From Rhodobacteraceae bacterium KLH11 (GTDB taxonomy: Bacteria; Pseudomonadota; Alphaproteobacteria; Rhodobacterales; Rhodobacteraceae): a DNA stretch of 64,000 nucleotides. The notes below the pieces were generated by a model, which worked only from the letters and a program-made list of their open reading frames with translations, did no database searches and was not told where the DNA came from. The DNA is taken from contig DS999532.1 of NCBI GenBank assembly GCA_000158135.1, positions 420,263-484,262 of the forward strand, given 5' to 3'. Position 1 is the first letter of the stretch. Every line of letters begins with the position of its first letter. This document shows, in pieces, positions 46,750-64,000 of the stretch. The position numbers and the translations under genes were made by a program.

Positions 46750-46780
46750 AAAAAAAGGGGCCGATCCTGCGATCAGCCCC
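46750..46780 (-). terminator. Intrinsic terminator of the kinase/LysM operon
   Basis: Minus-strand GGGGCTGATC, loop GCAG, GATCGGCCCC, followed by seven T. It lies 26 bp after the stop of the last LysM-binding-protein gene. Confidence 0.9.
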
Positions 46781-46805: not shown

Positions 46806-47912
46806 TCAGTTTGATGCTGCTGTCATTCGTTCGTTTTGCTCGCGCAACGTGTCCGAGACGATCGCGTACCATTCACCGCTTTCACGCATTTCGATCAAAC
46901 CACGGTTCAGCAGCGCAACATACTTGCGTGCATGCGGGTTTGATTTGTGTGCGTAGAAATGCAGGCTCAGAATGTTGTTGAGGTAATTGTTTTCAACCAC
47001 CTCATTTGGTGCCACTCCCATTTCCGCAAGGATGTCAGCGGCAAGTTCTACTTCGAAGCTGACAACATCTGTCGTGCCGTTCAGCAACGCTTCCATGCAT
47101 TCAACCGACGTTCTGGGCTGCATCATAGTAATGTTCGGGGCGACAAGGCCGACCTCTTCCAGATCGAAGGTGAACCAGCCGCCAGTCCGACAAACGGATG
47201 CGCCGTAGAAATCTTCGAAACTCTGCGCGCTGGCATATTCGCTTTCTGCAAGGGTGAAGAAGCTGATGACCGAATCATATACCGGAACGGTGATTTCGAA
47301 TTCGGTGCACCGCATCGTGGTGTTTTCACCCCATTCATAGGATTTGTTGCTGCAATCGGGCATGTACCATCCGAGGGATACGTCAAACGCGCCCAAAGGA
47401 AGCAGGGTGCTGAGGTGCGATGCCCAATCATCCACAAAGCTGATCGAGTAATCGCGGTTGTTGCCACCCCGGCGCATCGCGGTTGATGCAAGACGTGACA
47501 GCATGCCACCATCGGCCATCTCCTGTTCGGCGAAGGGGGCCCAGTTATCGCCAACCACCATGCGGATCGGAGGCTCATAGATATTTGTGGTGGTGCTATC
47601 CGCGTATCTTGCCTCTTGGTTGGCGATCAATTCCCGGGCGGATTGACCATTAGGCAAGCTGCCATCTTCACAGGGCAACGCCAGAACCAGACCCGGATTC
47701 AGATCATTCGGGTTCGTGATGTTGTCGCGGTTGGCGTTGAAAATCGGCTGATAGTTGGATGTACCATAAGCCGCGATCGAGATTGTTGCCAGGGTGTCGC
47801 CATCAGAAACCGAATAGTTGGAACAGGCTTCTTGTGCGGCGGCGGCCCCGGCGCTGAGTGAAATGATGGCTGTGGCCGACATCGCCACTTTCTTCAGATT
47901 GAAATTGTGCAT
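46806..47912 (-). CDS. Exported LysM plus solute-binding-domain protein (shorter form)
   Basis: 368 residues from the ATG at 47912 (GGAGG upstream). The signal peptide ends near AAAAQEA. A LysM module follows: YSVSDGDTLATISIAAYG, then NYQPIFNANRDNI and LNPGLVLALPC, closed by two cysteines as in disulfide-bearing LysM proteins. The remaining ~240 residues are a family 3-type periplasmic binding domain (RMVVGDNWAPFAEQEMADGG; FDVSLGWYMPDC). LysM would anchor it to peptidoglycan. It is paralogous to the next gene and is the last of its operon. Confidence 0.8.
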   Translation of the reverse strand: MHNFNLKKVAMSATAIISLSAGAAAAQEACSNYSVSDGDTLATISIAAYGTSNYQPIFNANRDNITNPNDLNPGLVLALPCEDGSLPNGQSARELIANQEARYADSTTTNIYEPPIRMVVGDNWAPFAEQEMADGGMLSRLASTAMRRGGNNRDYSISFVDDWASHLSTLLPLGAFDVSLGWYMPDCSNKSYEWGENTTMRCTEFEITVPVYDSVISFFTLAESEYASAQSFEDFYGASVCRTGGWFTFDLEEVGLVAPNITMMQPRTSVECMEALLNGTTDVVSFEVELAADILAEMGVAPNEVVENNYLNNILSLHFYAHKSNPHARKYVALLNRGLIEMRESGEWYAIVSDTLREQNERMTAASN

Positions 47913-47955: not shown

Positions 47956-49218
47956 TTACCCATTTTCCATTTGATGACGCAGAGCCGTCGACACGATGTC
48001 GCGCCACTCGCCAGATTGCTGCATGATCGCCAACCCCTGATTGAGCGTTTCAAGAACCGCTTCGCCATCGGGGCTGTCTTTGTGCGTCATGACGTTAAGC
48101 GCCTTGATTGCCGCCAGATTTGGGTTCTCGATAACCTGATGTTCGTATCCCAGACGGTTGATCGCCTCGCCCGCCAGATGCGCCTCGATGGCGACGATGT
48201 CTGCAGAGCCATCCATGACCGCGTGAAAACAATCATCCGGAGAGACCGGGCGCATCAGGGTTATGGCGGGTTCATAAAGGCCAACAGCGTCCATATGTGA
48301 CAATGACCAGCCTTCGGGGCGGCAAATCGTGGCGCCCGCGAAATCGGAATAGCTCAGCGTGGTTTCGTAGCCCGTGCCTTCGCGGGCAAAGAATGTGTCC
48401 ACGACCTCATAGAACGGGTTTGAGAAGTTATATGTTTCGCACCGGCTCCGGTCGGCCTCGGACAGCACATCGCCCTGCTCGCAATTGGGGCGAGACCAGG
48501 GGAAGGTTGCATCAAAGGCCAGGGTCGGCATCAGCAGGTCCAGATGTGATGACCAGTCATTTACGAACTGGATTTTGTACCCCTGTTCCGGTGCCGCGCG
48601 CAGCATCGCGGTTTCAACCAGATGTGTGTATAGCCCGCGATTGGGCAGCGCTTCGTCAGTGAACGGGGCATAGTTGCCGCCTGTGATCAGCAGCAGTTGA
48701 CGGTCACGAATGTCCGGGCGCTCACTGCTTGCGGCGTTGCGGATCAGGGCGGCCCCTTCGGCACGGGCGGCCTCAATCTCTTTCTTTGCATCGGCCTTGG
48801 CCGCGATCACCGCGTCTGCGTTGGCCTTCTTGGCCTCGGCTTCTGCGGCGGCAACGCGGGCCTCGGCCGCTGCGATGGCTTTCTCGGCGCGTTCTTCTGC
48901 AGCTTTAACCAGTTCGGAGGCCATTTCAGCAGCGATCCGGCCTGCTTCGGTGTCCGGCAAGGCTGGTGCGCGACCGATCTCTTCCAGACAGGGGAAGGTC
49001 AGAACATCGCCGACGCGGATAATGTTGGGGTTGGAGCCGATCGTGTCGCGGTTCACGTCATAAAGAAACCGATAATCCTCGGTCGCATAGACCGCAATCG
49101 CCAGTTCCCGCAGGCTGTCCCCGCGCTGGATTTCATAGGTCGAGCAGGCCTCTTGTGCCGAGGCCATCCCGGTTGTGGCCGCAAGGGCCAGACTGGATAT
49201 GATCAGATGGTTTCTCAT
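47956..49218 (-). CDS. Exported LysM plus coiled-coil plus solute-binding-domain protein
   Basis: 420 residues from the ATG at 49218. Signal peptide (LIISSLALAATTGMASAQ), LysM (YEIQRGDSLRELAIAVYATE; RVGDVLTFPC), then an Ala/Glu/Lys-rich helical stretch of ~65 residues (ERAEKAIAAAEARVAAAEAE...) that should form a coiled coil. A binding domain homologous to the neighbour's follows (LLLITGGNYAPFTDEALPNR; MRPVSPDDCFHAVMDGSADI). The coiled coil is absent from the neighbour. Placed after kinase, FHA and PP2C genes, it may sense wall fragments or solutes; that is inference. Confidence 0.8.
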   Translation of the reverse strand: MRNHLIISSLALAATTGMASAQEACSTYEIQRGDSLRELAIAVYATEDYRFLYDVNRDTIGSNPNIIRVGDVLTFPCLEEIGRAPALPDTEAGRIAAEMASELVKAAEERAEKAIAAAEARVAAAEAEAKKANADAVIAAKADAKKEIEAARAEGAALIRNAASSERPDIRDRQLLLITGGNYAPFTDEALPNRGLYTHLVETAMLRAAPEQGYKIQFVNDWSSHLDLLMPTLAFDATFPWSRPNCEQGDVLSEADRSRCETYNFSNPFYEVVDTFFAREGTGYETTLSYSDFAGATICRPEGWSLSHMDAVGLYEPAITLMRPVSPDDCFHAVMDGSADIVAIEAHLAGEAINRLGYEHQVIENPNLAAIKALNVMTHKDSPDGEAVLETLNQGLAIMQQSGEWRDIVSTALRHQMENG

Positions 49219-49240: not shown

Positions 49241-50020
49241 TTATGTTTGGGTCGGTTTGACCACGGCGATTGAGATATTGTCCTGATCCGGATCAGCCTT
49301 GGCATGCAGCGCCTGAAGCAGCGCATCAGCGATATCGCGGGCAGGTGATTGAATATGGCTGCGCACCAGCACCTCGATCTCGGGATGGCTGAGATATTGC
49401 AGGCCATCACTGCCAAGGATCAGAACATCCGCCGGGCTCAGCAACAGGGGTTGTTCCGGACAATCCACCTTGGGGATTGCCGCCCCCATGATGACCGAGG
49501 TCAACTGGTTGCGATCAGGATGGGCCTGCGCCTCGTCCGGGCTTAGCAGCCCCTGCGCCAGTTGCGCATCAATCTCGGGGGCCATCGAGTGATCTTCGTT
49601 GATCTGCAACAGGTTGTTGTCACGGAACAGATAAAGCGGACTGTCGCCGATCGAAATCCAGAACACCTGTTGATCCAGCATCAGCATGCCCAACAGGGTA
49701 GAGCCCAGATTGATCTTGTTTTCCGCGCTATGGCTGGCCATCGCGGCATTGGCCTGCATTGCGGCCACTGGCAGAGCGTCGAGCAGGGCGCTCTGCGCAA
49801 GATCAGGCTCATCCAGTTGGGCATCCACGGCGTCGCGCCAGGCGGAAATGACCAGTTCCGATGCGACTTCGCCCGCATCATGGCCACCCATACCATCCGC
49901 AACGACAACATATCCCGCATCGGCCGCATCAGAGACCCGCGCGGCAATGGCGTCTTCCTGCGTCTCGCGCTGACCCTGATCCAGGATCAGGGCAATGTCA
50001 TATGCAGGGGTCGCCAGCAT
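49241..50020 (-). CDS. PP2C-type protein serine/threonine phosphatase
   Basis: 259 residues with all PP2C motifs: QRETQEDA, VADGMGGHDAGEVASE, GSTLLG, GDSPLYLFRD, ILGSDGL and DQDNISIAVV; the metal-binding aspartates are in place. Soluble and cytoplasmic. Its start overlaps the FHA gene stop by one base (TAATG), so the two are coupled. It should reverse phosphorylation by the kinase encoded at 51263. Confidence 0.93.
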   Translation of the reverse strand: MLATPAYDIALILDQGQRETQEDAIAARVSDAADAGYVVVADGMGGHDAGEVASELVISAWRDAVDAQLDEPDLAQSALLDALPVAAMQANAAMASHSAENKINLGSTLLGMLMLDQQVFWISIGDSPLYLFRDNNLLQINEDHSMAPEIDAQLAQGLLSPDEAQAHPDRNQLTSVIMGAAIPKVDCPEQPLLLSPADVLILGSDGLQYLSHPEIEVLVRSHIQSPARDIADALLQALHAKADPDQDNISIAVVKPTQT

Positions 50021-51060
50021 TAATCAGCATCCCGCCAGTCAAAACCATCGTCGCAGAAGGTTGCAAAGCGGATCGAGGTTTCGCTGATCCGGATCAGGTC
50101 ACCACTGGACAGGGCAACGGTGCTGAGCACCGGCTTGCCGTTCAAGCGCACGATATTGGCCTTGCCGCCATGACCCAGATAACATTTCCGGTCTTCGGGA
50201 TCATAGGCGATCACGGCATGGTTGCTGCGCGAGATTCCGGTGTCCCCGAAATCCAGCTGAATGGCCTGATCGTCGTTGCGCCCGATCTGCATCAGGCCTT
50301 CTGTCAGCGTGATGCATGCACCCCGGCCCGGACCGGCAGTGATAACCAGCCAGCCAACGGGATAGGTCTGTTGTGCGGCTTCGGTTTTGGCAATCGGTTC
50401 CGAGGTCTCCATCATATCCTGCACATGCGTGTCAGCCCGTTCAAAGCCCAGAAATGTGGTCTTCACGCGCGCTCGGCGATCTTCGGCAGGGGCCGGGGCG
50501 GGCGTTGCGACGGGTGTGGGCATTTCGGCAACCGGTGTGGGTTCCGGCGCAGGATCAGCAATGACTTCCGGCTCGGCCACCAGTTCCGGTTCTGGCGCAG
50601 GCTCGGAGGTCATCTCGGGCGCAGCCGGAACCTCAGGAGTTGCGTCGGGTTCAATCGGGGTTTCAGCCTCTGCTTCGGGCTCGGACGCGACCGTTGCCGC
50701 AACAAAAACCGAGATATCATCTTCCTGAACCTTATCTTCCGGTGCCAGATGAAGCGTGACGATCTGGTCGTCATCGGCGGTGGCCGTTTCCTCTGCGGTA
50801 CTTTGTGCTTCGGCAGGGTCTTCCGCTGCGGTCTGAGTTTCATCAAACTCGGGCATGGGGTCTTCCGGGATCAGCTCATCCGTATCCTCGTAGCTGTCCG
50901 AACTCATATTGCCGCCAGCCAGAGCGGTACGCAGCGCGTTGAAATCGGCGATTGGCTCGGGCTTTTCTTCCTGTACCGCTTCGGCCTCGACCGCGTCTTC
51001 TTCTTTTGGTTTGCCAGCACCTTCGAGAAGCCGGCTAAGAGGGCTTTTATATTTGAACAT
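50020..51060 (-). CDS. FHA-domain phosphothreonine-binding protein
   Basis: 346 residues from the ATG at 51060 (a GTG at 51090 is possible). The N-terminal ~220 residues are Glu/Pro/Ala-rich and low in complexity, likely disordered. The C-terminal ~105 residues are an FHA domain with MQIGRNDD, ISRSNHAVIAY and NIVRLNGKPVL, which contain the conserved G-R, S-x-x-H and N-G residues. It likely docks onto Thr-phosphorylated partners made by the kinase upstream, and has Thr-Glu-rich tracts that could themselves be substrates. Confidence 0.9.
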   Translation of the reverse strand: MFKYKSPLSRLLEGAGKPKEEDAVEAEAVQEEKPEPIADFNALRTALAGGNMSSDSYEDTDELIPEDPMPEFDETQTAAEDPAEAQSTAEETATADDDQIVTLHLAPEDKVQEDDISVFVAATVASEPEAEAETPIEPDATPEVPAAPEMTSEPAPEPELVAEPEVIADPAPEPTPVAEMPTPVATPAPAPAEDRRARVKTTFLGFERADTHVQDMMETSEPIAKTEAAQQTYPVGWLVITAGPGRGACITLTEGLMQIGRNDDQAIQLDFGDTGISRSNHAVIAYDPEDRKCYLGHGGKANIVRLNGKPVLSTVALSSGDLIRISETSIRFATFCDDGFDWRDAD

Positions 51061-51262
51061 GGTGTCGACACCTTCTGTGATTTCTGACACGGGGATTTCC
51101 CCGCGGGACTGCTACAAACCGCTGCCCGTAACGCGCAGGGCACTTATGAAGAGGAAAACAGGGAAACTTTTACATCGCGACGGGCCGGTTCCCGACGGGG
51201 TGGCTGAACATGGGCCACCCCCAACACACATACGTTGGCGATTGTCACATGAACCGGTGCAA
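51061..51262. other. Gap between kinase and FHA genes with a hairpin
   Basis: The 202-bp gap contains GGGGTGGC/GCCACCCC (51197-51204 with 51214-51221), a perfect 8-bp stem without a U-tract. It could attenuate read-through from the kinase gene. No convincing separate promoter for the FHA-PP2C-LysM genes was identified. Confidence 0.4.
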
Positions 51263-53410
51263 TTACTCCTGCGTTAGCTGCATAACCGCAGTGCTTTCAG
51301 TGCCGCCACGCAACACACGCAGGCGCGCTTGGGGCTGATTTTCGGATACGAGTTGGCTGAGAATGCCATCCAGACTATCGGGTTTATCCAGTGCAATCCG
51401 GGTTTGTGCCTCGCTCAGCAGAACATCCCCACGCTGCAGGCCGCCCGCTGTGTTCCCGGGGACGGATGCGACCACCGTTTGCCAGCCGCCTTCACCTGTG
51501 TGGCGGGCATCGAATGTATAGCCATTTTGCAGGCCGAACATGCGATGGGCTGGCAAGGCAAGCAATCCGTTCTGAGCGCGTGTTTCGCCCAGGGCCCGAT
51601 AGCGCGCCGCGACGCGGACATATCCATCGGGGTCAACCGAGAAATCGTCAAGAACCTGTGAGACCAGCGATGCGTCTGCACGGACGGGCTTGCTGTTGAG
51701 CGTATAGATGGTTGCCCCGCGCTGAACCCAGTCACCAATCACTGACATGTCGCGATCAGCATCGACGCGGCTGATGGCAAAGATATTGCCCGTCGAAGTA
51801 CGACGTTTGGACGTTGTGAAGGGCAGATCGATGTCCCAATGACCAAACGCAATCTGGTCTTCAGCCAGCGTTACCGGCGTGATTTCTGCGACCACTTCGC
51901 TTGCCACTGCTTCGGGTGTTGCAACGGGTTCTGGCTGCGCCTCGGCGACTGTGGGTTCTTCCGGCGCTGTTTGTGTCTGCTCGACAGGTTGTTCTTGCGC
52001 CGTTTCCGGTTCTGGTGCCAAAGCAGGTTCGGCCTGTTGCGGCTCTGTCGTGGCTTCGGCTGTTTGCTCGACCTGTTCCGGTGCAACTTCCGTGGAAGAC
52101 GGAGTTGCTGGTGCCTGTGTGGTCGCCGTTGATGTTTCGGGCGTTGACGGATCGCCCGACATTAGGAAAAACCCTCCGGCGGCGACGGCAGCCAATACAA
52201 CTGCAGCGCCTGCGATCATCTTGCCACTGCCGCCAGAGCCGCTTTTGACCACAGTGTCGACCGCGACTGTGGTCTCTTCCTGAGGGGCGAATTTCGCCAG
52301 ATCCTCTTCAGGCTTGTCCTCGTTGCCAAGCACCAGATCCGAGTTTCCGGCCAGCAGGGCGGTAACGACAGCCTCGGCATTTTCGCTTTCTGCCTTGATC
52401 CGCTCTTTTTCGGCCTTCTCGTCCTTGCGATCCATGCCGACAATGACCGAAACCGGGCGATAGGCGAATGTATCGAACATCACATCGGGGCCCCGGAACA
52501 TACGCAACCAGTCCAGCGCAGTCTGCAGCCGGTCGGTTGCATGAACCTCCATCGCCTTGTCGATGGCTTCAAGGAAATCCTTCGGATAGCCGTCGAACCG
52601 CCCGGCCAATGGCACGTAGGGATCGGGCTGGCTGTTGTTGAACGCGTTCAGGCGGGTCTGGCCGTCAATCGGGCGCTCGCCGCTGATCGCATGATAGAGC
52701 GTGGCGGCAAGTACATAGAGGTCACTGCTGGGCCCCTGATCCGCGCCGCGCACATAGAATTCATGTGGCGAATACCCGTCTTTGATCACGCGCAACGTCA
52801 GCAGGGCCGCCGATTTGTTTGCCGCCTGTTCACGCGCTGCGCCAAAATCAATCAGGACAGGTTCGCCGTTTTCGTCGATCAGGATGTTGTCGGGTGAGAT
52901 GTCGCGATGCAACATACCGCTTTGGTGGATGAACGAGACCGCCGAAAGCATCTTCTCAGTGACCTGAACAATGAAATCGGGCCCGCTGTCCTTGTCGGGG
53001 TTCTCGACATAATCCAGCAGGTCGCAACCGCGGATCAGATCCATCGCGATATAGGCGGTGTTGTTGTCTTCGAACACCTGATGCACATCGACGATATTGG
53101 GATGAACCAGACGTGCGTGGTTGCGCGCTTCCTGAATGAACAGGTCAATGATCGCCCGCAGATCGTCCTTATGATCGGGGTCGGCCGGTTCGACCAGATC
53201 GCCACTCCGCTGACACAGCGCGCCCGGATAGCATTCCTTGATAACCACGTCCCGATCCAGGCTGTCGCGTGCAAGGTAAGTAATTCCAAACCCGCCATTG
53301 CTGAGAAAGCGGAGTATCTCATACTGACCGCGCAGCAGCTTTGCGCCTGGCTGCAATCCTTCGATCTGAGGTTCGTCGTGCGTCGCACCGACCGCCTGAT
53401 TGTGGCTCAT
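51263..53410 (-). CDS. Transmembrane Ser/Thr protein kinase with PDZ-like C-terminus
   Basis: 715 residues. Kinase domain at ~25-310: glycine loop FLSNGGFGITYLA, Lys58 in VVIKEC, catalytic loop HRDISPDN (Asp170, Asn175), DFG at 188-190, and SPHEFY as activation/P+1 segment. A single membrane helix at ~398-417 (IAGAAVVLAAVAAGGFFLM) is followed by a long Thr/Glu/Pro-rich linker. The last ~185 residues are a predicted periplasmic domain whose end (GLQRGDVLLSEAQTRIALDK) looks PDZ-like. So it can relay an envelope signal inward. It has its own promoter at 53574-53603. Confidence 0.92.
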   Translation of the reverse strand: MSHNQAVGATHDEPQIEGLQPGAKLLRGQYEILRFLSNGGFGITYLARDSLDRDVVIKECYPGALCQRSGDLVEPADPDHKDDLRAIIDLFIQEARNHARLVHPNIVDVHQVFEDNNTAYIAMDLIRGCDLLDYVENPDKDSGPDFIVQVTEKMLSAVSFIHQSGMLHRDISPDNILIDENGEPVLIDFGAAREQAANKSAALLTLRVIKDGYSPHEFYVRGADQGPSSDLYVLAATLYHAISGERPIDGQTRLNAFNNSQPDPYVPLAGRFDGYPKDFLEAIDKAMEVHATDRLQTALDWLRMFRGPDVMFDTFAYRPVSVIVGMDRKDEKAEKERIKAESENAEAVVTALLAGNSDLVLGNEDKPEEDLAKFAPQEETTVAVDTVVKSGSGGSGKMIAGAAVVLAAVAAGGFFLMSGDPSTPETSTATTQAPATPSSTEVAPEQVEQTAEATTEPQQAEPALAPEPETAQEQPVEQTQTAPEEPTVAEAQPEPVATPEAVASEVVAEITPVTLAEDQIAFGHWDIDLPFTTSKRRTSTGNIFAISRVDADRDMSVIGDWVQRGATIYTLNSKPVRADASLVSQVLDDFSVDPDGYVRVAARYRALGETRAQNGLLALPAHRMFGLQNGYTFDARHTGEGGWQTVVASVPGNTAGGLQRGDVLLSEAQTRIALDKPDSLDGILSQLVSENQPQARLRVLRGGTESTAVMQLTQE

Positions 53411-53748: not shown

Positions 53749-55038
53749 TCAGGTGCCGGTTCTGGATGGCGCCGAAGCGACGGTGCTGCCAGCCCATGCG
53801 AGGTTATCGCTGAGCTGGGCAAGGATGCTGATCGCGTCCTTCAACGGTGCATCGCCACTTTCAAATTGCAGCAGCAGCAACAGATCGGTCGCCTTTTCAA
53901 ACTCTGCAGGAATCCAGTCAGCTTCCGGGGCGATTTCATCACCGGATTCCAGCCGCTCTGCGAAATCCTCGACGATTTCCTGACAGCTTTGCAGGAAAGC
54001 CGCCGGTTCAATCCCCGAGCTTTCGCGCAGATCATTATAGATGCTGGCAATCGCCGCCAGCCAATCTTCAAGGATCGGATTGTCCAGCGGGGGCAGGGCG
54101 GTTTCAAGGCTGGCCTGCACGGCTTGACCATCTGCCCCGGCCTCCGCCGCAGGCGTATCATCTGTGTGCTCGGCAAGATAGCGCAGGAAGACATCTGTCA
54201 GATCTTTTCGGGCAGATTCTAGATCATTTCGGCGATGCTCTGAGGCAACCTGCAGCACCTGCTCTGCCAGGTTTTGACCGCCACAACTCTCCCACAGATC
54301 GAAATCCGGTTCGGGCTCCTGTTCCATGGCGCGCACGGCCACCGGTGTGCCAATCGGCACGACAGCGCGGAACATGTCACCCTTTTCCTTGTTCAGACGA
54401 GCCGTGACCCGATCCAGCGCATCACGCACGGGGGGCAGGTCGGCATGGGTCACAGCAAGCAGACTGTTATCCCGCAACTGTTGCGGCACTTGCGACCACA
54501 AATGGCGCTCGGTCTCGCGCCAGGCATTGGTGCCGTTAGTGCACCAGATCGCGCAGTCCACATATTTCAGAAGTTCCAGCGTCTGTTTGTATGTGTCGTC
54601 CAGCGCCCCTGCGCCGGGCAGGTCGAACAACGAGATTTCCTGAAGGGCAGGGGTGTTCAACCCGACCGAGATGAAATCCGGATTGTCCGCCGCCGCTTTT
54701 TCCAGCGTGATGCCGGAATAAACCTTGGGTTCCTTGTTCCACCATCCAACCGTGGTTTCCGGCGTCTCGGCATAGGCGACAATGACCAGTGGCAGCTTCA
54801 GATGCTGTGGCCCGGTTGGCAGAATGTCCGCCCCGGCCAGCATATTCGCAAGGCTGGATTTGCCTGCACCAAACTCTCCGGCAAAACCGATTGAAACCGC
54901 GTTCGAAAGCCGTTCGGCATGAGCCAGCGCGCGGGTGCGCAGATCGTCCAGTTCGGACGACGAGGGTAGGTTTTCGGTGGCGGTCAGGAAACGCTCTAAC
55001 TGGCGCACTTCCTTCTCGGTTCCGGGGAAGTCAATCAT
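53749..55038 (-). CDS. Dynamin-like GTPase, type B (pair 2)
   Basis: 429 residues. P-loop GEFGAGKSS at 54-62, G3 DLPG at 139-142, G4 THAD at 197-200. The segment WCTNGTNAWRETERHLWSQV aligns with WCTHSTQAWRETERATWVSL of the type-B protein at 58443, proving common origin. The C-terminal half is helical and acidic with no membrane segment. Its start overlaps the preceding type-A gene by 4 bp (ATGA), so A and B are probably made in fixed ratio and may act as a heteromer. DLPG instead of DTPG is a small deviation. Confidence 0.85.
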   Translation of the reverse strand: MIDFPGTEKEVRQLERFLTATENLPSSSELDDLRTRALAHAERLSNAVSIGFAGEFGAGKSSLANMLAGADILPTGPQHLKLPLVIVAYAETPETTVGWWNKEPKVYSGITLEKAAADNPDFISVGLNTPALQEISLFDLPGAGALDDTYKQTLELLKYVDCAIWCTNGTNAWRETERHLWSQVPQQLRDNSLLAVTHADLPPVRDALDRVTARLNKEKGDMFRAVVPIGTPVAVRAMEQEPEPDFDLWESCGGQNLAEQVLQVASEHRRNDLESARKDLTDVFLRYLAEHTDDTPAAEAGADGQAVQASLETALPPLDNPILEDWLAAIASIYNDLRESSGIEPAAFLQSCQEIVEDFAERLESGDEIAPEADWIPAEFEKATDLLLLLQFESGDAPLKDAISILAQLSDNLAWAGSTVASAPSRTGT

Positions 55039-57074
55039 TCTGCGGCCTCTGCCTGTCGGGTCACTACGGGGGACGAGCCAAGGACCGATCCCAGCTCATC
55101 CGTGATGCGGCGCGCCTGATCAACAGCGCGCTGCGCTTCGGCCCGCGCGTTCGTACCTTCGCCACCACGATGTTCCAGATGCCCGGCCAATAGCGCCAGA
55201 TAGTGATCCAGAACGGTTTGCAGCCTTTCTGCCAGATCGCTGCGGGCGGTGTCTACCAGATCATCGCCGATCATCTCGAATTCCTGCACGATCATGCGTT
55301 CGGCCCGGTTCAGAACGCTGCGGCGCGAGATCAAACGCGACAGCCATGTCACGCGAAGCTCGACCGTGATGCCACGGGTCAGCGCGCTGGTGTCCGGGCG
55401 GAACCAACGCACAGCGCTGGTATTCATCCGATTATCCACCGGCTCCTGCCAGCCGGGCAGGGCACGCAGTGCAGCGTTGCTTTGCATGTCAATCGCATAA
55501 AGCTCGCTCAGCATGCGTTGGCGCACGACCTGCGTGGCGCCTTGTACCAACTCACGCATGCGTTCGCGCAGAGGGGTAAAATTCAGCTCGGTTTCACCAT
55601 CCTTGGCCAACAAAGGAGATTGCCCGTCAGGCCCGCGAACGACGATCGAGACCGCCTCGGCCACCGTATCGTCCATCACCCCGCGCAGATTGGCCAGCAC
55701 ATCATCCATATCGTTGGTGATTGCTGCGGTTTTCTCGGCAACCATGGCCCGGAGTTCCGTGAGGGTTTGATTGTTTTCATCCAGATTGGTGGGGCTGGGC
55801 TGATCCTGCACCTCAATTGCGCGCAGATGGGCAGTGCTGCGTTCCAGCTCGCCCTGCGCAAAGCTGTTGAGGTGCTGCCACGCCATGTTCAGCTGTTCCT
55901 GACGGGCCCCTTCGGTCAGCGCCTTGGTGACATGACGTCGCAAATCCGGCAGCCCCGAGGCGATCATGGCCGCAAAGCGCAGCACGCCTTCGCGGCTGAT
56001 CGGGCCGGGGCCTTGCTTGATCTCTTCGACGCCCGAAAGATATTGTTTCATCTGCTCCGGATGCGCGCGCAGCCAGGCCAGAATCTCATCATGATCGATA
56101 CCGGTTTCATCCCCGGTCAGCGCATAATGTGCCCATTGCGCGCTGCCCATCAGCACGTCAATGTCCGAATTGCCAAGCGCCTGCTCCAGCCCATCCATCA
56201 CATCAGCGCGAACCTTCGAGGCATCATTGGCACCGCCCCCCAATTCGTCGACACGATTGATGAACACCACGATCTGACCAAGTTCCAGGGCCTGCATCAG
56301 GCGGAACAGCTTCAGATCAGCTCGTGACAGGGCCTGATGCGCGGACAGGACCACCACAAAGAAATCGGATTCCTTGAGATACTGGCGCGAGATTTCTTCG
56401 CGGATCAGCAACGGGTCATTGACGCCGGGCGTATCGGTTACGGTCACCGGATAGGGGAAATGGCCGATGTCGAAATAGACCTCGGCCTTGCGGGTGATAT
56501 CGCTGTAAAGGCCCCGGTCAGAGCCCGGATCATGGGTACCTTCATCCGTCGGATCGTCGCCGGCGCAGACATAGCGGGCCAGATCGTCAGAGGTCAGTTC
56601 ATCCAGATCATGATGCTGGCCAAGCAGGTGTTTGTAGCTTTCGCCCAGGCGCAGCTTGGCGCGGGTTTTCATCGCCTCGACCTGCTCTTCGATCATTTCG
56701 CGCTTATAGCTGTCCTCCTCATCGGGGAACATGTTGCGCAGCTCTTCACCTTCGGCAATCAGCGCCTGCCATTGCGGGTTGTCGAAAAAATGGAACTCGG
56801 CCCCGGATGTGCGACCCGAAGGGTGGCCGAAATGCATATCGGTGATGACGGTGGTCCAGGGGTTTACATCCGAAGGTAAATATTCAGCCTGACCCGTGAA
56901 CCCGTTGATCAGCCGGGACTTTCCGGCCTTGATCTGCCCGACAAAGGCTATCGATGGCTTGAGGTTGGTCAGATCGTCAACAATACGCGAGATGAAATGA
57001 CGGGTTTCGTCATTGCTCAACCCGTTCAAATCTTCTGCTATACGAATAAGTTCGCGGCGATTCAGTTCACTCAT
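55035..57074 (-). CDS. Dynamin-like large GTPase, type A (pair 2)
   Basis: 679 residues. P-loop GQIKAGKSR at 46-54, LPSDVNPWTTVIT as switch I/G2, DTPGVND at 214-220, and NRVD at 273-276 in place of NKxD. About 300 residues of helical stalk follow. TWLSRLISRR at ~576-585 aligns with the Trp/Arg-rich motif of the other type-A protein, a possible membrane-contact segment. It shares SDVNPWT and the ALTG element with the protein at 60107. The dynamin superfamily reshapes membranes; the target here is unknown. Confidence 0.88.
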   Translation of the reverse strand: MSELNRRELIRIAEDLNGLSNDETRHFISRIVDDLTNLKPSIAFVGQIKAGKSRLINGFTGQAEYLPSDVNPWTTVITDMHFGHPSGRTSGAEFHFFDNPQWQALIAEGEELRNMFPDEEDSYKREMIEEQVEAMKTRAKLRLGESYKHLLGQHHDLDELTSDDLARYVCAGDDPTDEGTHDPGSDRGLYSDITRKAEVYFDIGHFPYPVTVTDTPGVNDPLLIREEISRQYLKESDFFVVVLSAHQALSRADLKLFRLMQALELGQIVVFINRVDELGGGANDASKVRADVMDGLEQALGNSDIDVLMGSAQWAHYALTGDETGIDHDEILAWLRAHPEQMKQYLSGVEEIKQGPGPISREGVLRFAAMIASGLPDLRRHVTKALTEGARQEQLNMAWQHLNSFAQGELERSTAHLRAIEVQDQPSPTNLDENNQTLTELRAMVAEKTAAITNDMDDVLANLRGVMDDTVAEAVSIVVRGPDGQSPLLAKDGETELNFTPLRERMRELVQGATQVVRQRMLSELYAIDMQSNAALRALPGWQEPVDNRMNTSAVRWFRPDTSALTRGITVELRVTWLSRLISRRSVLNRAERMIVQEFEMIGDDLVDTARSDLAERLQTVLDHYLALLAGHLEHRGGEGTNARAEAQRAVDQARRITDELGSVLGSSPVVTRQAEAAE

Positions 57075-57144
57075 TAGATTTACCCTGGTAACTCGTATTT
57101 TAGGTTTAACTTAGCAAAATGGACACTATTGGGCAGGATCGCGG

Positions 57145-57990
57145 TCATTCAACGGCGGTTTTCAAGGACTTCCACAGGTTAACAACAGCACCCAACTTGC
57201 GGGCATCATGCACTGCGGCGGCGGTTTCCCGGCCATCGCGCAGGATGGCAAGCCCGGCCCCCTGACCCCCGGACGGGCGCATGACGATCAATTGTGGCTC
57301 TGACAATGCACCAGATCCATCAGCCTGCCAACCGGCCAGATCCTTGGCGAAACGGTTCAGCAGGTCTGCATCGGGCTGCGCAGGCTGACCCGGTGCACAT
57401 ATCCCGTCAAGTTGGATATCGTCTTCCGCAGCCCCCATCAGAATGCGACCCAAGGCAAAACGGTCGGTGTCGTCATAGAACGTGCCGGCAATGCTGGCGT
57501 GGGGGGCCGGATGCGCCTCGGGCGGGTGGTTCTCGACGATGGATATCCGCGGTTCCTCGGGCAGTTCGATCCGGTCGCAAGCGGCTTGAACCTCTGAGAA
57601 GGTAATCCCCACATCATCAGCTTCCAGCGCCATGTCGGGGCGGCGTGAAACCAGCTCTAGCGGGCTGGGCGCGGTGGCGATATCCGACACCAGCTGAGCC
57701 AGACGCTCGGTCAGATTTTCGCGGGCATCGGTTTCGAAATCCGGCACCGGGCCTGTGACACATCGAAAGACATCGGTGATCCGCGAGCTGTTGACCTCGA
57801 TCGCAAGCACAGCCCCGTCAGAGGCGGTGAATTCCAGCCGCCGGGGCAGGATCGTACCCCGGATCACGCCCAGAACCTCGTCACGACGTGCCTGCGCCGT
57901 GTCGCCCGGCAGATAGAATGCCGGAGACAAGCGTGCGACCGACGTTCGCCCGATCCCTTCGAGCATATCCAGAATTTCGCCATCCATCAT
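57145..57990 (-). CDS. Uncharacterised protein of the GTPase locus, 281 aa
   Basis: No family recognised and no signal peptide or membrane helix. The N-terminal ~110 residues (LSPAFYLPGDTAQARRDEVL; RRLEFTASDGAVLAIEVNSS) look like a folded domain. The middle has an acidic/proline linker, and the C-terminal part contains QLIVMRPSGGQGAGLAILRD followed by a helix. It starts 24 bp after the Roadblock gene and precedes type-A GTPase 2 by 70 bp. I infer a scaffold or regulator of the GTPases. Confidence 0.7.
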   Translation of the reverse strand: MMDGEILDMLEGIGRTSVARLSPAFYLPGDTAQARRDEVLGVIRGTILPRRLEFTASDGAVLAIEVNSSRITDVFRCVTGPVPDFETDARENLTERLAQLVSDIATAPSPLELVSRRPDMALEADDVGITFSEVQAACDRIELPEEPRISIVENHPPEAHPAPHASIAGTFYDDTDRFALGRILMGAAEDDIQLDGICAPGQPAQPDADLLNRFAKDLAGWQADGSGALSEPQLIVMRPSGGQGAGLAILRDGRETAAAVHDARKLGAVVNLWKSLKTAVE

Positions 57991-58014
57991 GCCGTGACCC
58001 CCCTATGGTCCCGT

Positions 58015-58416
58015 CTATACCGCCGCGGCCACCGGCCTGAGGCTGAGATGTGATTTCGTAAGCGCCAGGCCTATATTGGCGCTGTCGCGGCAGATATAGC
58101 AGACCACATGATCAGGATATTCAGGTGTCCTGAGAAAGATATGCAAACGGTCACTGGCAAACACCGCGATTTCCCCAAACCCCGGATGTTCCACCTCATC
58201 TATCCCTGCGCTGCGCAGCAGGTCTTCAAAGCCCTTCGTGCCGCGCCCCTGAAACAGGTTCGCGACAGCCAGCGCCAGATTTTCCAAGGCTTCCGCGTTT
58301 TCACGATCAGAGGCCTCAATGCCCAGTAACATCCCGGTTTCCATATCAACATACCCGGCTGCAATGCAGTCGGGTATGGTCTCGATGGCCGAGGCTAATG
58401 CGGCGTCAATCGACAT
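58015..58416 (-). CDS. Roadblock/LC7-like domain protein
   Basis: 133 residues. IPDCIAAGYVDMETGMLLGI is the first strand-turn-strand of a Roadblock/LC7 fold; VCYICRDSANIGLALTKSHL is the closing strand and helix. In MglB and similar proteins this fold binds and controls small GTPases. Here no MglA-like GTPase is present, but four large GTPases surround it, so it may be their regulator. Gaps to neighbours are about 25 bp. Confidence 0.7.
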   Translation of the reverse strand: MSIDAALASAIETIPDCIAAGYVDMETGMLLGIEASDRENAEALENLALAVANLFQGRGTKGFEDLLRSAGIDEVEHPGFGEIAVFASDRLHIFLRTPEYPDHVVCYICRDSANIGLALTKSHLSLRPVAAAV

Positions 58417-58442
58417 TTATTCGCCTGCCTTGCTGAGTTGGA

Positions 58443-60098
58443 TCAAACCGCATGCCACTCTGCCCGGCTGTTTTTGCTGGCCTCACGCACCGCCTGCAAC
58501 GTGTCTTTGGTGGGGTGCGTGTTGTGCTCTTTCGCGATCTCGTCGAATTCGGACAAGAACGCCGCAAACGCGCTTTTCAACCCGTTTGCATCATCAGGCA
58601 GGGTTTCACGCGCCACGATCTCGCTCCACATGGCTGAGGCGCTGAGCGGGGCGCCTTCGGTCAGGTGCGCGGGGCTATCCGCCACGTCTTCGGACGCGTC
58701 GCTTTGATCTTCGTCTACAACCGAAATGCCCTTCATTTCGACCACGCGGCCCGGGGTCAGAGAGTTCGATTCAGGCTCGGGTTCGTATTCGTCCTCGGCG
58801 CTTTCGGATTGTTCCGCCAACAGGGCCGTGATGGAAGAGACCGATTGTTCGATGTCTGTATTTTCGGGAACATCGTCCGCAGGGCTTACGGCAATTGTGA
58901 CGGCTTCCTCGGCTTCCTCTTCTTCTTTTTCAGAACCCAGAACAATCAGTTCTGCTTCGTCCTGATCTTCTTCCTCATCACCCATGAAAGCGAACTCATC
59001 CACCTCGGTGGCCGGGTTTGCCAACATGCCCAGATCAAGCGGCTCGTTGGGCTGGTCAGAGAACAGGGCGCGCAGATCCTCGTCAGCCGGTTCGGCCTCA
59101 GTCGTCATTTCGACGCGCATCCGCTCTGCCTCGTCCGCACCGATACGGGCACGTTCAGCATCGTCTGTGCGACGCTCAACGCGGGCAGGGCGCACGGGAA
59201 AGCTGGTGATGACATCGCTCTCGGCATCAGCGCTCTGGTCAGCCGTCGTTTCAACCAGCTTGAGCGGGGTTTCCTCGGGCCGCTTTTCCGGACGCAAGGG
59301 TTGTACTCTGGCCTCATCAGGCAGAGCTTTGTCGATCTGGTACCGGGCCAATTGGTTCGCACGGTCATCCATGATCTGCTCAGTTATCTGAAGGAAACTG
59401 TCGACCATTTTGCCGCCGCCGCTCCGGGCCCAAAGCTCGGCATCGCCGGTTTTGTCGCGCGCCATGATGGCGTCGCGGGCAGAAAACAGAATGGTGCGAT
59501 TGAACAGATGCCCGGCTTCACGGTTGACGCGGCGCAAAACCTTTTGCCGATCTTTCTGGCCCAGAGCATCTGCCCGCGTAATCAGCAAAAGAGACTTGTG
59601 TTGCAAACGTTCGGGCAAAGACACCCATGTTGCCCGCTCGGTCTCGCGCCAGGCCTGAGTTGAATGCGTACACCACAAGACGCCATTTGCCTGACCGACC
59701 GCACGCTGCCAGACATCGGTGGAAATCTTCGGGTCCGAAATACCGGGCGTGTCGATCAGATCAACGGCTTCCAGAATATCGGCCTCAAGAAAGATGCGGA
59801 CGAACTGCGCATCATTCACGCCAACCTGTTCAAGCTGATCCAGCTCGATATTCCGCATGCTGCCGTCGTGGGATTTCACATACGCAGGTCGATTGCCCCA
59901 GCTGAACCAGATCGGCGGCAGCTGAGTGGCTGTAACCTGCGTCGGCAACGCCTGCTTGCGCAGCAGGAAGTTCATCAACGTCGATTTGCCTGCACTGAAT
60001 TCTCCCATAAGCGCAAATACAGGCTTGCGGCGCGACCACTGCTCGATGCGGTTCCAGCTCTTGGGAGAGACGAAGCGGGTTTCAGATGTATTTACCAT
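58443..60098 (-). CDS. Dynamin-like GTPase, type B with acidic linker (pair 1)
   Basis: 551 residues. P-loop GEFSAGKST at 32-40, DTPG at 116-119, TRAD at 174-177. After ~260 residues a long, strongly acidic, low-complexity region (for example LGSEKEEEEAEEAVTIAV) replaces the compact C-terminus of the 429-aa paralogue. A final ~70-residue helical domain (LKSAFAAFLSEFDEIAKEHN) follows. The linker suggests a flexible tether or a phosphorylation/FHA docking region; the latter is speculation. Follows type-A GTPase 1 by 8 bp. Confidence 0.85.
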   Translation of the reverse strand: MVNTSETRFVSPKSWNRIEQWSRRKPVFALMGEFSAGKSTLMNFLLRKQALPTQVTATQLPPIWFSWGNRPAYVKSHDGSMRNIELDQLEQVGVNDAQFVRIFLEADILEAVDLIDTPGISDPKISTDVWQRAVGQANGVLWCTHSTQAWRETERATWVSLPERLQHKSLLLITRADALGQKDRQKVLRRVNREAGHLFNRTILFSARDAIMARDKTGDAELWARSGGGKMVDSFLQITEQIMDDRANQLARYQIDKALPDEARVQPLRPEKRPEETPLKLVETTADQSADAESDVITSFPVRPARVERRTDDAERARIGADEAERMRVEMTTEAEPADEDLRALFSDQPNEPLDLGMLANPATEVDEFAFMGDEEEDQDEAELIVLGSEKEEEEAEEAVTIAVSPADDVPENTDIEQSVSSITALLAEQSESAEDEYEPEPESNSLTPGRVVEMKGISVVDEDQSDASEDVADSPAHLTEGAPLSASAMWSEIVARETLPDDANGLKSAFAAFLSEFDEIAKEHNTHPTKDTLQAVREASKNSRAEWHAV

Positions 60099-60106
60099 AA
60101 CTCTTC

Positions 60107-62107
60107 TTATGCTGCTTCGTTGTTGAGATCTTTGAGGATGTCGCCCAATATGTCATCACGCGACTTTTTCGGCTGTGCACCGGATATTTGCGCCGTGGCT
60201 CGTTCTGGCGATTGTGAGATGCCAAGCAGCGTATCTTTCTGCTCTTTCATGAAATCAGCAAGCGTGGCGCGGACATTTTCCAGAACGGCTGCGATCTGGT
60301 TCTCCTCGATATCTTTAGTGATCGAGTTCGCCTCGGATGCAATCAGACGTGTGTAGTCTGCGGCATAAGCCTCGAACCCTTTGCGGCGCTGCCACCATCG
60401 ACGCCACCAGGTGCTTTGCAGATCAAGCGCGATTGTGCGCCCGATACCCAGCGGAGGTGGCACACGTGGTACAATCGGTGCTTCGATGTTGAACTCGCCC
60501 AAATGATTGCCCAGCAGCTTCTGATAAAGGGCTTCGACATCAGCCGCAGCGGCCCCGTAAAGCGCACCAACCTCTTTGCGCATCGAGCGTGCAAAACTGA
60601 AATACGCAGCTTTCTGCAGTGTCCGCAGCCCAGCCGGGTCGTATTGCCAGGTCCCCTGCTCTCCGTTCTGTTCCAGATGAGAGATCAGTGAATCCGTGGC
60701 CCGTTTGACAAAGTTTGTTTCGGCTGACGCCAGCCGTTCCAGAACCTTGTCGCGCAGCTTTGCGGTCAGCTCGGACGTTCTCTTTTCATATTCCGATGAC
60801 ACTGTTGCTATTGCATCTTCAGGCGACGCGCCATCGAGATCGCGAACGATGCCATCGCTGTTCGACAATGTCTTGGCGACGGCAGTTGCTCTGATCTGGC
60901 TGGCAATGTTGCGCGCCCGGTGGCGCACGCGATCCAGCAGCCGGGTTCCCGTTCCTTCGGCAATCCGTTCGTTCATGGCCAGCAACAAATCAGGCAGACC
61001 TGACAACGCCCAGATCTTGTCCAGCGATGCCGCCTGATCGCCAAATCCGGCGGCCAGATAGAACGTGTTCAGCGTCTCGCGCGATTCCTCTGTCAGAATA
61101 TCCGGGTTTCCGGTCAGCGCGGCCTCGGCCCACAAGGCGCTACCAAAGACGATGCTGGTGTTGGTATCGATATTATTCTGCTTCAGCGTATCCTGAATGC
61201 GATCCCGAATTTCGGGCACCTGACTGATCGGGTCCGACAATTCGTCAATGCGGTTTACGAACAGGATAATCTGGCGATTTTCAAACTGGGCGATGATCCG
61301 CATCAGGGCCATATCCATCGTCGTCAGCGCCTGACTGGCCGCAAGAACGACAACACAGACCTCTGATCCACGCAGGCTGCGCAAGGTTATCTGTTCGCGC
61401 ACCATGAAAGTATCGTTCACACCGGGCGTATCGCAAAGTTTGAGCGCGATCGGATATTGCGGGATATCCATAAAAAGCTCGGCTGATTTTGTTACATCGG
61501 CGAAGCGACCCGTCTTGGGGTCGATATCCGGATCATCTTCATCCCCAAGGCAGACATATCGCTGAACCAGTTCGTCATCGAAATAGTCATACTGATGGCT
61601 CTGCCCGAGGATCAGATCGAAATGCTTGCCCAGCCGCTCTTCGGATTTGGCCTTCATATCTTCAATCTGACGACGGATGTCATCCATCTCGTCATCGGCT
61701 CCGGCGCGATTTGCCAGCTCACCCAGCCGACCGCCGCCCACCATCAGATTGTCCCATTCTTCCTGCTCGAAAAAGGTGAACTTTGACTTGGTATCACCTT
61801 CGGTCCGGGTGTTGATGTTGAGTGTGGTGACCACCGAAGTCCACGGGTTCACATCCGAGGGCAACAGGTTGGGCCGCCCGGCCAGAATATTCACAATCGA
61901 AGATTTCCCGGCCTTCACCTGCCCCACCATGGTGACGCTGGCCGAAAAGTTTTCCATTTTCGTCTTCAGTGCAGCCAGCCGCGCGGACGAACGCGCATCC
62001 GCCACCTCTGTCAGTTGGTCGATCTGCGTCGTCAGCGAGGTCATTGCCTCTGTCATCTCGGACAGAGCCTCGTTTCCTACAGACAGAAGGTGGTCGTTGC
62101 GCGCCAT
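60107..62107 (-). CDS. Dynamin-like large GTPase, type A (pair 1)
   Basis: 666 residues. P-loop GQVKAGKSS at 62-70, LPSDVNPWTSVVT (G2), DTPGVND at 226-232, NRID at 285-288. The stalk region is mainly helical. TWWRRWWQRR at 566-575 is a striking Trp/Arg cluster that could insert in or bind a membrane. Clearly paralogous to 55035-57074. The gene starts 2 bp after the 137-aa ORF stop. Confidence 0.88.
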   Translation of the reverse strand: MARNDHLLSVGNEALSEMTEAMTSLTTQIDQLTEVADARSSARLAALKTKMENFSASVTMVGQVKAGKSSIVNILAGRPNLLPSDVNPWTSVVTTLNINTRTEGDTKSKFTFFEQEEWDNLMVGGGRLGELANRAGADDEMDDIRRQIEDMKAKSEERLGKHFDLILGQSHQYDYFDDELVQRYVCLGDEDDPDIDPKTGRFADVTKSAELFMDIPQYPIALKLCDTPGVNDTFMVREQITLRSLRGSEVCVVVLAASQALTTMDMALMRIIAQFENRQIILFVNRIDELSDPISQVPEIRDRIQDTLKQNNIDTNTSIVFGSALWAEAALTGNPDILTEESRETLNTFYLAAGFGDQAASLDKIWALSGLPDLLLAMNERIAEGTGTRLLDRVRHRARNIASQIRATAVAKTLSNSDGIVRDLDGASPEDAIATVSSEYEKRTSELTAKLRDKVLERLASAETNFVKRATDSLISHLEQNGEQGTWQYDPAGLRTLQKAAYFSFARSMRKEVGALYGAAAADVEALYQKLLGNHLGEFNIEAPIVPRVPPPLGIGRTIALDLQSTWWRRWWQRRKGFEAYAADYTRLIASEANSITKDIEENQIAAVLENVRATLADFMKEQKDTLLGISQSPERATAQISGAQPKKSRDDILGDILKDLNNEAA

Positions 62108-62109
62108 AG

Positions 62110-62523
62110 TCAGCCTCCGGTACCCGTTGCGGCGATGTGGTCCCCTGCCCCGTCAGGCAGGCTCGCAAGCGTGTCAATGCGTGCGATAAGATCCAGTGCG
62201 TTCCCAAGGATCACAGCCTCGGTTCGCGGTGAAATTGATTCATAGGCAAGGGAATCAGCCAAAACCTCAATCGAGCTGAATCCTTCCCCATTTTCCAGAC
62301 TGGCCACGCGGCGCCCGGTCGGAAAGTCTTGCGATTTATGTGCAGGCAACGGCATGCGGGCATTAGCCAGCAGGTAACGGTTACCCGAATGAGTTCTGAG
62401 AGCGACACCGAAACCCGTGCCAGGATGCTGGCGGTTCAGGGTTTTCAGCTCGCCGATAAAGCTTTCGCGGGCAAGGCTTACGACGTCTTGCTCGGAAGCG
62501 ACAGTTTTGATCTGGTTGGTCAC
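62110..62523 (-). CDS. Uncharacterised protein heading the GTPase operon, 137 aa
   Basis: I choose the GTG at 62523, because AAGGG lies 8 nt upstream and longer starts have no ribosome site. No family recognised. FGVALRTHSGNRYLLANARM and an amphipathic helical C-terminus (LGNALDLIARIDTLASL) are visible; there is no signal peptide. The start overlaps the stop of a 22-codon leader ORF (GTGA). First recognised gene of the 62.5-53.7 kb operon. Confidence 0.65.
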   Translation of the reverse strand: MTNQIKTVASEQDVVSLARESFIGELKTLNRQHPGTGFGVALRTHSGNRYLLANARMPLPAHKSQDFPTGRRVASLENGEGFSSIEVLADSLAYESISPRTEAVILGNALDLIARIDTLASLPDGAGDHIAATGTGG

Positions 62524-63282: not shown

Positions 63283-63367
63283 GCGGGTGTGGCGAAATTG
63301 GTAGACGCACCAGATTTAGGTTCTGGCGCCGCAAGGCGTGGGGGTTCAAGTCCCTCCACCCGCACCA
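63283..63367 (+). tRNA. tRNA-Leu (anticodon UAG)
   Basis: An 85-nt sequence folds as a class II tRNA. The acceptor stem is GCGGGTG/CACCCGC with an encoded CCA end. The D-arm contains AAATTGGTAGAC, the anticodon stem is CCAGA/TCTGG with loop TTTAGGT (UAG), and the long variable arm is GGCGCCGCAAGGCGT. The T-arm is GGGGGTTCAAGTCCCTC. Confidence 0.95.
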
Positions 63368-64000
63368 AAACAGACTTTAGGGTCTGTAATCCCCCCTAAC
63401 ATTTTGAATGGTAACGCTATTTCCGGGGTTCTAGCTCCCTGATTTCGGCAGTATTTGATGCGGGTCTTAAAGGCCAGTTTCAGGATCAATCTGCGCATAT
63501 GGACCTGCATACCTCCGGGTGTTTCCCAGAGTTTCCAAGGGTTTGTGAGGAAGGTGATTGCAGGTTCTAGTTTTTCCTTGAAGGTGCCTTTGGGCTCAGC
63601 CTGGTTGGCGAGTTTTTCGGTCAAACGCGCCTTGTCATGCTCGTGCTGTTCGATTTTTTCCTCGTATTTCCGGATCACGGTCGTGTTGTTGGAGGCCATG
63701 ATCAGGTCGAGAAGCTTCTCGATCTCTTTGTCCACGCTGGCGAGCTGGCGTTTGGGCGGCAAAGATGGTCTCCATGAACTCGCCTTCCGGGGAATCGTCA
63801 AAGCGATAGTTCAGACATTCCAGAGTGGCGTTGCGGGCACGGAAAGCCTCGCGCAAACGGAAGTGGAAGTCACGGTCGCGGGCAAAGCGTTTCAGGTCGT
63901 CGAAGACAACGATGAAGGTCTCATCCGGCTGCGCGTCCATGAAGGACAACAGAGCAACGAGACCGGGGCGCTTCATAAAGTCGCCGCCTCCCGTCATCGT
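63346..64000 (-). pseudogene. Serine recombinase remnant with internal deletion and frameshift
   Basis: The upstream frame (to the window edge) encodes the end of a resolvase catalytic domain: FIVVFDDLKRFARD and YRFDDSPEGEFMETIFAAQ. At about 63760 the coding continues in another frame with KRQLASVDKEIEKLLDLIM and the C-terminal part (ITFLTNPWKLWE). The large central recombinase/zinc-ribbon portion expected between them is missing. The frame runs antisense into the last 22 bp of tRNA-Leu. The N-terminus with the catalytic Ser lies outside the window. Confidence 0.75.

Follow-up and report, generated by a model that had tools for sequence, protein, structure and literature searches.

The 64,000-nucleotide stretch of Rhodobacteraceae bacterium KLH11 analysed here (contig DS999532.1, positions 420,263 to 484,262; hereafter the window) carries a gene cluster with two pairs of dynamin-like GTPases, A1–B1 and A2–B2, a protein with a predicted Roadblock/MglB fold, a protein kinase, an FHA-domain protein, a PP2C-type phosphatase and two substrate-binding-like proteins. 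The cluster is real, conserved and larger than first described. We propose, at roughly even odds, that it encodes a signal-controlled membrane-remodelling machine of heterotypic dynamin pairs with a Roadblock regulator and phospho-signalling. What would be new here is the doubling of bacterial heterotypic dynamins and their association with phospho-signalling and a Roadblock protein. To our knowledge, the control of bacterial dynamins is largely open, and a conserved cluster in which dynamin pairs are accompanied by genes for phosphorylation, dephosphorylation, phospho-reading and switch-type regulation makes their control directly testable in a culturable marine genus. A literature search, with preprints and most subscription journals outside its scope, found no published description of this arrangement among the papers listed; these included none on dynamin in Ruegeria and one genome paper, from another genus, on dynamin in Rhodobacteraceae.

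Seven minus-strand genes (62523–53749), separated by intergenic gaps of 2 to 70 bp, encode in order a 137-residue protein, A1, B1, a 133-residue protein, a 281-residue protein, A2 and B2. This agrees with an earlier note on the same DNA, which had described two A–B pairs with Roadblock and 281-residue genes between them; the lengths, coordinates and order were all re-found, as were the 4-bp overlap of the A2 and B2 genes and the motifs LPSDVNPWT, DTPGVND and NR(I/V)D in both A proteins and WCT..T.AWRETER in both B proteins. The two accessory genes that it placed in the operon are there, but the unit is larger, and the kinase, FHA, PP2C and substrate-binding-like genes (53410–46806) had been omitted. 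The annotation of a Ruegeria conchae plasmid gives all twelve genes, unchanged in order (four for dynamin family proteins, three hypothetical, kinase, FHA, PP2C and two substrate-binding).

Dynamin-like A and B proteins

All four GTPases score above the Pfam Dynamin_N cut-off, and of the eight proteins in the genome (4.49 Mb) that match this family they are the top four. A2 is a homologue of A1 over its length (E 6e-64, 28.5% over 659 columns), and Dynamin_N together with the motif rows places a dynamin-type GTPase domain with G1 to G4 in both; G1, the G2 threonine, DTPG and NRxD are kept in 67 of 67 A rows. The A1 model, with a mean predicted local distance difference test score (pLDDT) of 77, consists of a G domain and four long helices; between the last two helices lies a low-confidence segment rich in Trp and Arg. 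Its best structural matches are BDLP (2j69), SynDLP, IniA, Cj-DLP and the mitofusins, and 530 residues align to BDLP, showing the helical neck and trunk of the dynamin superfamily. A1 models as a BDLP/IniA-type dynamin, with low confidence at the membrane tip. The outcome that the earlier note had named as contrary, models with no dynamin-type stalk, did not appear, as the A1 model has one.

B1 and B2 resemble each other in the G domain only (E 6e-26, 28% over 218 columns), and it is for this domain that the earlier description of the B proteins as dynamin-like stands. G1 and DxPG are kept in 49 of 49 B1 rows (42/42 and 7/7 added). In 16 loci with a single A gene, B1 has 287–364 residues, a length probably too short for a neck and trunk. 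Such lengths speak against a full stalk, and the B proteins may have none.

Paired duplication and the B2 motif

The A tree resolves the clades A1 (46 rows), A2a (9) and A2b (12), and the B tree resolves B1 (42), Balpha (8) and B2 (32), with support values of 87 to 100 in the Shimodaira–Hasegawa-like approximate likelihood-ratio test (SH-aLRT); these first trees exclude L133, L134, L136, L137 and L139, which are loci of the same genus, and B rows of 50 bits or less. Adding rows and an outgroup recovers these A and B clades (SH-aLRT 89 to 100), the outgroup A tree excluding the A2 of L092 and the outgroup B tree, like the constraint test below, also excluding the long or odd B rows of L132, L109, L102, L120 and L105. 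The outgroup root is weak, resting on one very long branch. The 62 adjacent A–B pairs comprise 42 of A1 before B1, 12 of A2b before B2 and 8 of A2a before Balpha, and their A and B patristic distances correlate (r 0.91; 0.81 to 0.89 within A clades, reached by 0 of 5000 permutations). The A and B trees thus match clade for clade, which supports the A–B pair as the unit of duplication (A1/B1, A2b/B2, A2a/Balpha), as the earlier note had claimed; the lack of co-duplication that it had set out as the contrary result was not seen. Since cognate pairs are common to many genera, the duplication is old and not particular to the KLH11 locus.

The catalytic motif of B2 mostly follows the presence of A2. 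Directly behind A2, DxPG is kept in 13 of 13 B2 rows (12/12 and the added row L140, a Ruegeria); without a preceding A2, it is kept in register in 1 of 24 (0/19, L117 yes, 0/4 added), and the B2 of L113 reads DVSG in register. Ruegeria looks to be among the lineages where all four G domains are able to work. Some genomes without A2 in the locus hold A2 elsewhere (e.g. G123, G176, G197 and G211). Holding the 12 A2-following B2 rows and L117 as one clade was not rejected by the approximately unbiased test (p-AU 0.246), so the data fit both A2 loss from and A2 gain beyond the single-A loci. The exception to the B2 pattern lies at 13181–17136 of L117, where a B2 gene with an intact DAPG is directly behind an ATPase gene and the locus has no A2.

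These data also bear on a reading in which the B proteins are regulatory GTPases or pseudo-GTPases, A forms a homo-oligomer and A–B pairing is mere gene neighbourhood. The shortness of B1 in the single-A loci and the degenerate B2 and Balpha motifs in many rows would fit this, but the invariant G1 and DxPG of B1 and the correlated A and B distances speak against it, and we consider it rather unlikely.

Roadblock and signalling proteins

The model of the 133-residue protein (mean pLDDT 86) matches Roadblock/LC7 and MglB proteins best and has the Roadblock fold that the earlier note had assigned. Pfam Robl_LC7 gave no match in 21 members of the 133-residue family and none in the KLH11 genome, and a profile search of the family against the PDB gave nothing useful; because the sequence searches were uninformative, it is the model that settles the identity. 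Counterparts of 118 residues in two relatives match Robl_LC7 at E 0.03, below the cut-off. By clustering, they belong to a second Roadblock-like kind of about 118 residues (L093 10816–11169, L118 7006–7356) that is found near A–B genes in seven loci. A natural fusion occurs in L127 (6247–8094), where a single open frame of 615 residues encodes the G domain of a B protein together with a DSP-type phosphatase and a Roadblock domain. The 137- and 281-residue proteins have no family in Pfam, PADLOC or NCBIfam, and a profile search of the PDB with the latter gave no significant match.

Regarding phospho-signalling, the kinase has HRD and DFG motifs, and its C-terminal part has no Pfam match. The two substrate-binding-like genes lie downstream of the phospho-signalling set in Ruegeria, and one profile built in this work matches both of their products.

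The envelope is also the site of a second alternative, in which the cluster would serve the release of outer-membrane vesicles or trafficking at the envelope, a role proposed for LeoABC. According to PMC4159319, deletions of LeoA, LeoB or LeoAB in E. coli leave about half the normal vesicle cargo; the predicted dynamin fold of A1 is compatible with such a role, and an envelope location is suggested by the substrate-binding-like matches and the weak LysM match. However, no vesicle link was seen in this analysis, and a hydropathy scan leaves B1, A2 and B2 unflagged; the single segment that it flags in A1, at residue 250, lies inside the G domain. We regard this alternative as unlikely.

Distribution and locus architectures

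The gene calls come from ad hoc open reading frame picking, with some starts too far upstream, and the locus profiles were built from the same loci, which makes scores within Ruegeria high by construction. Of 54 named loci found with A1 as query, mostly from close relatives and identifying the genus as Ruegeria, 50 retain the complete seven-gene series followed 3′ by the kinase, the exceptions being L080 and L081 (3.4-kb contigs), L091 and L092. The 137- and 281-residue genes are each present in 51 of these loci; A1 and B1 contribute cross-hits to the per-gene counts of A2 and B2. The two-pair module is conserved in this gene-neighbourhood survey, a check that the earlier note had suggested, but in many relatives a single A stands between two B genes and the B2 motif is degenerate.

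This single-A order, PP2C-B2-A1-B1, occurs in 16 loci of 15 genomes (L096, L098, L100–L107, L110, L120–L123, L126). FHA is labelled in 16 of 16, the kinase in 15 (not in L103), and PP2C is present; a 281-type gene carries a low-score label in 6 of the 16, and clustering adds a similar gene in five others. A second A2–B2 module behind Roadblock and 281-type genes is found in L095, L119 and L124. In L124, Pfam identifies a DSP-type phosphatase and an ABC/AAA-type ATPase, to which clustering relates proteins of L095, L117, L119 or L127. Arrays of A-B-A-B order without a labelled kinase set occur in L093, L094, L128, L150 and L151, and some B genes of L127 and L130 were missed in profile labelling. 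Rhodobacter sp. CZR27 has four consecutive annotated dynamin genes.

The A profile (E <= 1e-20) matches 60 of 248 family genomes, 42 of them with a single A match (at most four candidates scored per genome), 2 of 385 genomes in the class sample, both from the same family, and 9 of 398 in the phylum sample, eight from the same family and one (G988) from another family of the class; each count includes the KLH11 genome. G988 has a single A–B pair with a 4-bp overlap. The 133-residue protein was found in 36 of 36 other Ruegeria genomes and in none of 24 from other families; across the family the count is just 18 of 248, KLH11 included, which we attribute to fast divergence. In PLSDB, A1 matches 18 plasmid records (12 Leisingera, 5 Ruegeria and 1 Rhodobacter). 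A Leisingera plasmid record, NZ_CP041163.1 (L141; 32.8 kb), carries a kinase-FHA-PP2C-B2-A1-B1 set.

The patchy occurrence in the family and the plasmid location in Leisingera could suggest anti-phage or anti-plasmid defence, like LeoA/LeoBC (Eleos) or B. subtilis DynA, for which PMC8844932 reports a role in phage resistance. The PADLOC LeoBC and LeoA models weakly match all four GTPases (E 2e-9 to 0.0015) and the PD-T4-6 and MAD6 models match the kinase, but in our reading any Ser/Thr kinase or dynamin G domain would give such matches. The constancy of the 133-residue gene within Ruegeria is unlike most defence systems. A phage origin was considered and rejected on the finding that A1 matches none of 50,697 phage records (cut-off E 1e-5), which also argues against defence, a function we likewise regard as unlikely. 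Finally, kinase-FHA-PP2C trios regulate type VI secretion in other bacteria, but the chance presence of such a control set here is highly implausible, as the trio recurs beside dynamins and the one core family tested, TssK (PF05936), is absent from the KLH11 genome (it was detected in E. coli among 14 controls).

Proposed mechanism

For the dynamin machine proposed above, we infer heteromeric A–B assembly and split duties, as the earlier note had suggested. Two heterotypic pairs, A1 with B1 and A2 with B2, would each act via A–B G-domain contact, with A providing the stalk and a Trp/Arg-rich membrane tip and B mainly the partner G domain. By binding the G domains of B or A, the Roadblock protein would set the nucleotide cycle, like MglB for MglA. 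The substrate-binding-like proteins, presumably exported, would detect the cell wall or a small ligand on the outer side of the inner membrane and signal via the membrane kinase, which PP2C would oppose, and the FHA protein would read phosphorylation and then recruit or release the dynamins. The fuller version is a Roadblock-gated, phospho-signalled machine of two co-duplicated pairs, in which B is a detached, trans-acting G domain with its catalytic motif kept mainly beside its own A, and the route runs from outside the inner membrane through kinase and FHA to dynamin; we advance it tentatively, with the odds against it. The natural variants, with one, two or three A–B pairs and B2 intact or degenerate, form a series for testing the need for heterotypic G-domain pairing.

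Several observations weigh against this proposal. The tip of the A1 model has low confidence (block means 49–63), and whole-chain Foldseek template-modelling scores of A1 against BDLP are just 0.43–0.50. Part of the A–B distance correlation comes from shared species history, for which the permutations do not correct. Regarding the B motif, none of 11 Balpha rows (0/8 and 0/3 added) keeps DxPG despite the A2a partner, the B of the outgroup pair reads DTPA, and the L117 B2 keeps its motif with no preceding A2 and one A match in its genome; as the constraint test could not separate the histories, the B2 losses may be one or two events only. Roadblock scores are low in the single-A loci (17–45 bits, 13 of 16 loci), L092 has no detected 133-residue gene, and the A-B-A-B arrays lack kinase, FHA or PP2C labels. 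The hydropathy scan flags no segment in either substrate-binding-like protein, their signal peptides being a by-eye reading. Lastly, the B2 and kinase genes lie 338 bp apart, so that a single transcript is only putative; the gap holds a promoter-like site, and such sites are no more frequent than by chance (4 found in the region, 7.6 expected).

Comparison with known systems

The A1 model matches Nostoc BDLP, mycobacterial IniA and SynDLP over most of its length, and we know of no Roadblock, FHA or PP2C partners for these three. In MglA/MglB and the Streptomyces conservons, a Roadblock protein is likewise encoded beside a GTPase, which is small and Ras-like there and dynamin-like in KLH11. Streptomyces DynA/DynB, known for a role in sporulation division, form one pair, whereas KLH11 has two.

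DynA and DynB are two dynamins that interact in vivo (PMC6104087; see also PMC8748795). PMC6104087 also covers Campylobacter jejuni Cj-DLP1/Cj-DLP2, whose GTP turnover depends on heterotypic G-dimers. As in the C. jejuni pair, the KLH11 dynamin genes are adjacent; the A-type profile matches 5owv (E 8e-13), and the A1 model matches as well. In contrast to that single pair, in which both proteins have a GTPase domain, neck and trunk, KLH11 has two pairs, a shorter B, and Roadblock and kinase genes. E. coli LeoA/LeoB/LeoC (Eleos) offer a precedent for a split dynamin with a vesicle role and, like KLH11, have several dynamin genes per operon (PMC4159319). The profile match to them is weak, the architecture differs, and the sections of PMC4159319 at hand describe no Roadblock, kinase, FHA or PP2C proteins, all of which KLH11 has.

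Gene layout and flanking regions

The features of the cluster are collected in Table 1. Terminator-like sites number 23 in the region, against 15.1 expected by chance.

Table 1. Features of the dynamin gene cluster, in window coordinates.
Feature	Position	Strand	Evidence
137-residue protein, first gene	62110..62523	-	No match in Pfam, PADLOC, NCBIfam
A1, 666-residue dynamin-like GTPase; predicted helical stalk, Trp/Arg-rich segment	60107..62107	-	Dynamin_N E 1e-11; model
B1, 551-residue dynamin-family GTPase; long acidic stretch (by eye)	58443..60098	-	Dynamin_N E 7e-10; G1 and DxPG intact
133-residue protein, predicted Roadblock/MglB fold	58015..58416	-	Structure model
281-residue protein, adjoins Roadblock gene	57145..57990	-	No family match, no significant PDB match
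A2, 679-residue dynamin-like GTPase	55035..57074	-	Dynamin_N E 6e-14; A2b clade
B2, 429-residue dynamin-family GTPase	53749..55038	-	Dynamin_N E 1.6e-10; GEFGAGKS, DLPG, THAD intact
Ser/Thr protein kinase; one hydrophobic segment near residue 399	51263..53410	-	Pkinase E 8e-28
FHA-domain protein; long low-complexity N-terminal part (by eye)	50020..51090	-	FHA E 1.4e-7
PP2C-type Ser/Thr phosphatase	49241..50020	-	PP2C_2 E 1.6e-13; NCBIfam Stp1_PP2C_phos 131 bits, below cut-off 230
420-residue substrate-binding-like protein; signal peptide and LysM-like start (by eye)	47956..49218	-	SBP_bac_3 E 4e-4, below cut-off
368-residue paralogue of the 420-residue protein; signal peptide (by eye)	46806..47912	-	LysM E 0.006, below cut-off
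Terminator-like hairpin: 10-pair stem, then TTTTTTTGTT (T run)	46757..46780	-	Directly behind last stop

On the 5′ side of the operon (window 63346–63997; L153 1898–7737), serine-recombinase-like pieces are followed by transposase-like and phage-like open reading frames, as read by eye. In their place, genes for a TetR regulator and a transporter lie 5′ of the twelve genes on the R. conchae plasmid; a downstream isocitrate dehydrogenase is common to both. In L124 (14227–16381), Pfam identifies a ferredoxin-reductase-globin fusion, whose family lies within 1.2 kb of labelled genes in L095, L117, L119, L124, L128 and L130; a GFA-family relative accompanies it in four of these six loci. Elsewhere in the window, three long open reading frames resemble thiamine-diphosphate enzymes (5440–7116, 9794–11467 and 40768–42390; only the third was scanned with Pfam). 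RepC matches were found on contigs C2, C3 and C4 and none on C5. The contig carrying the window has 708,450 bases.

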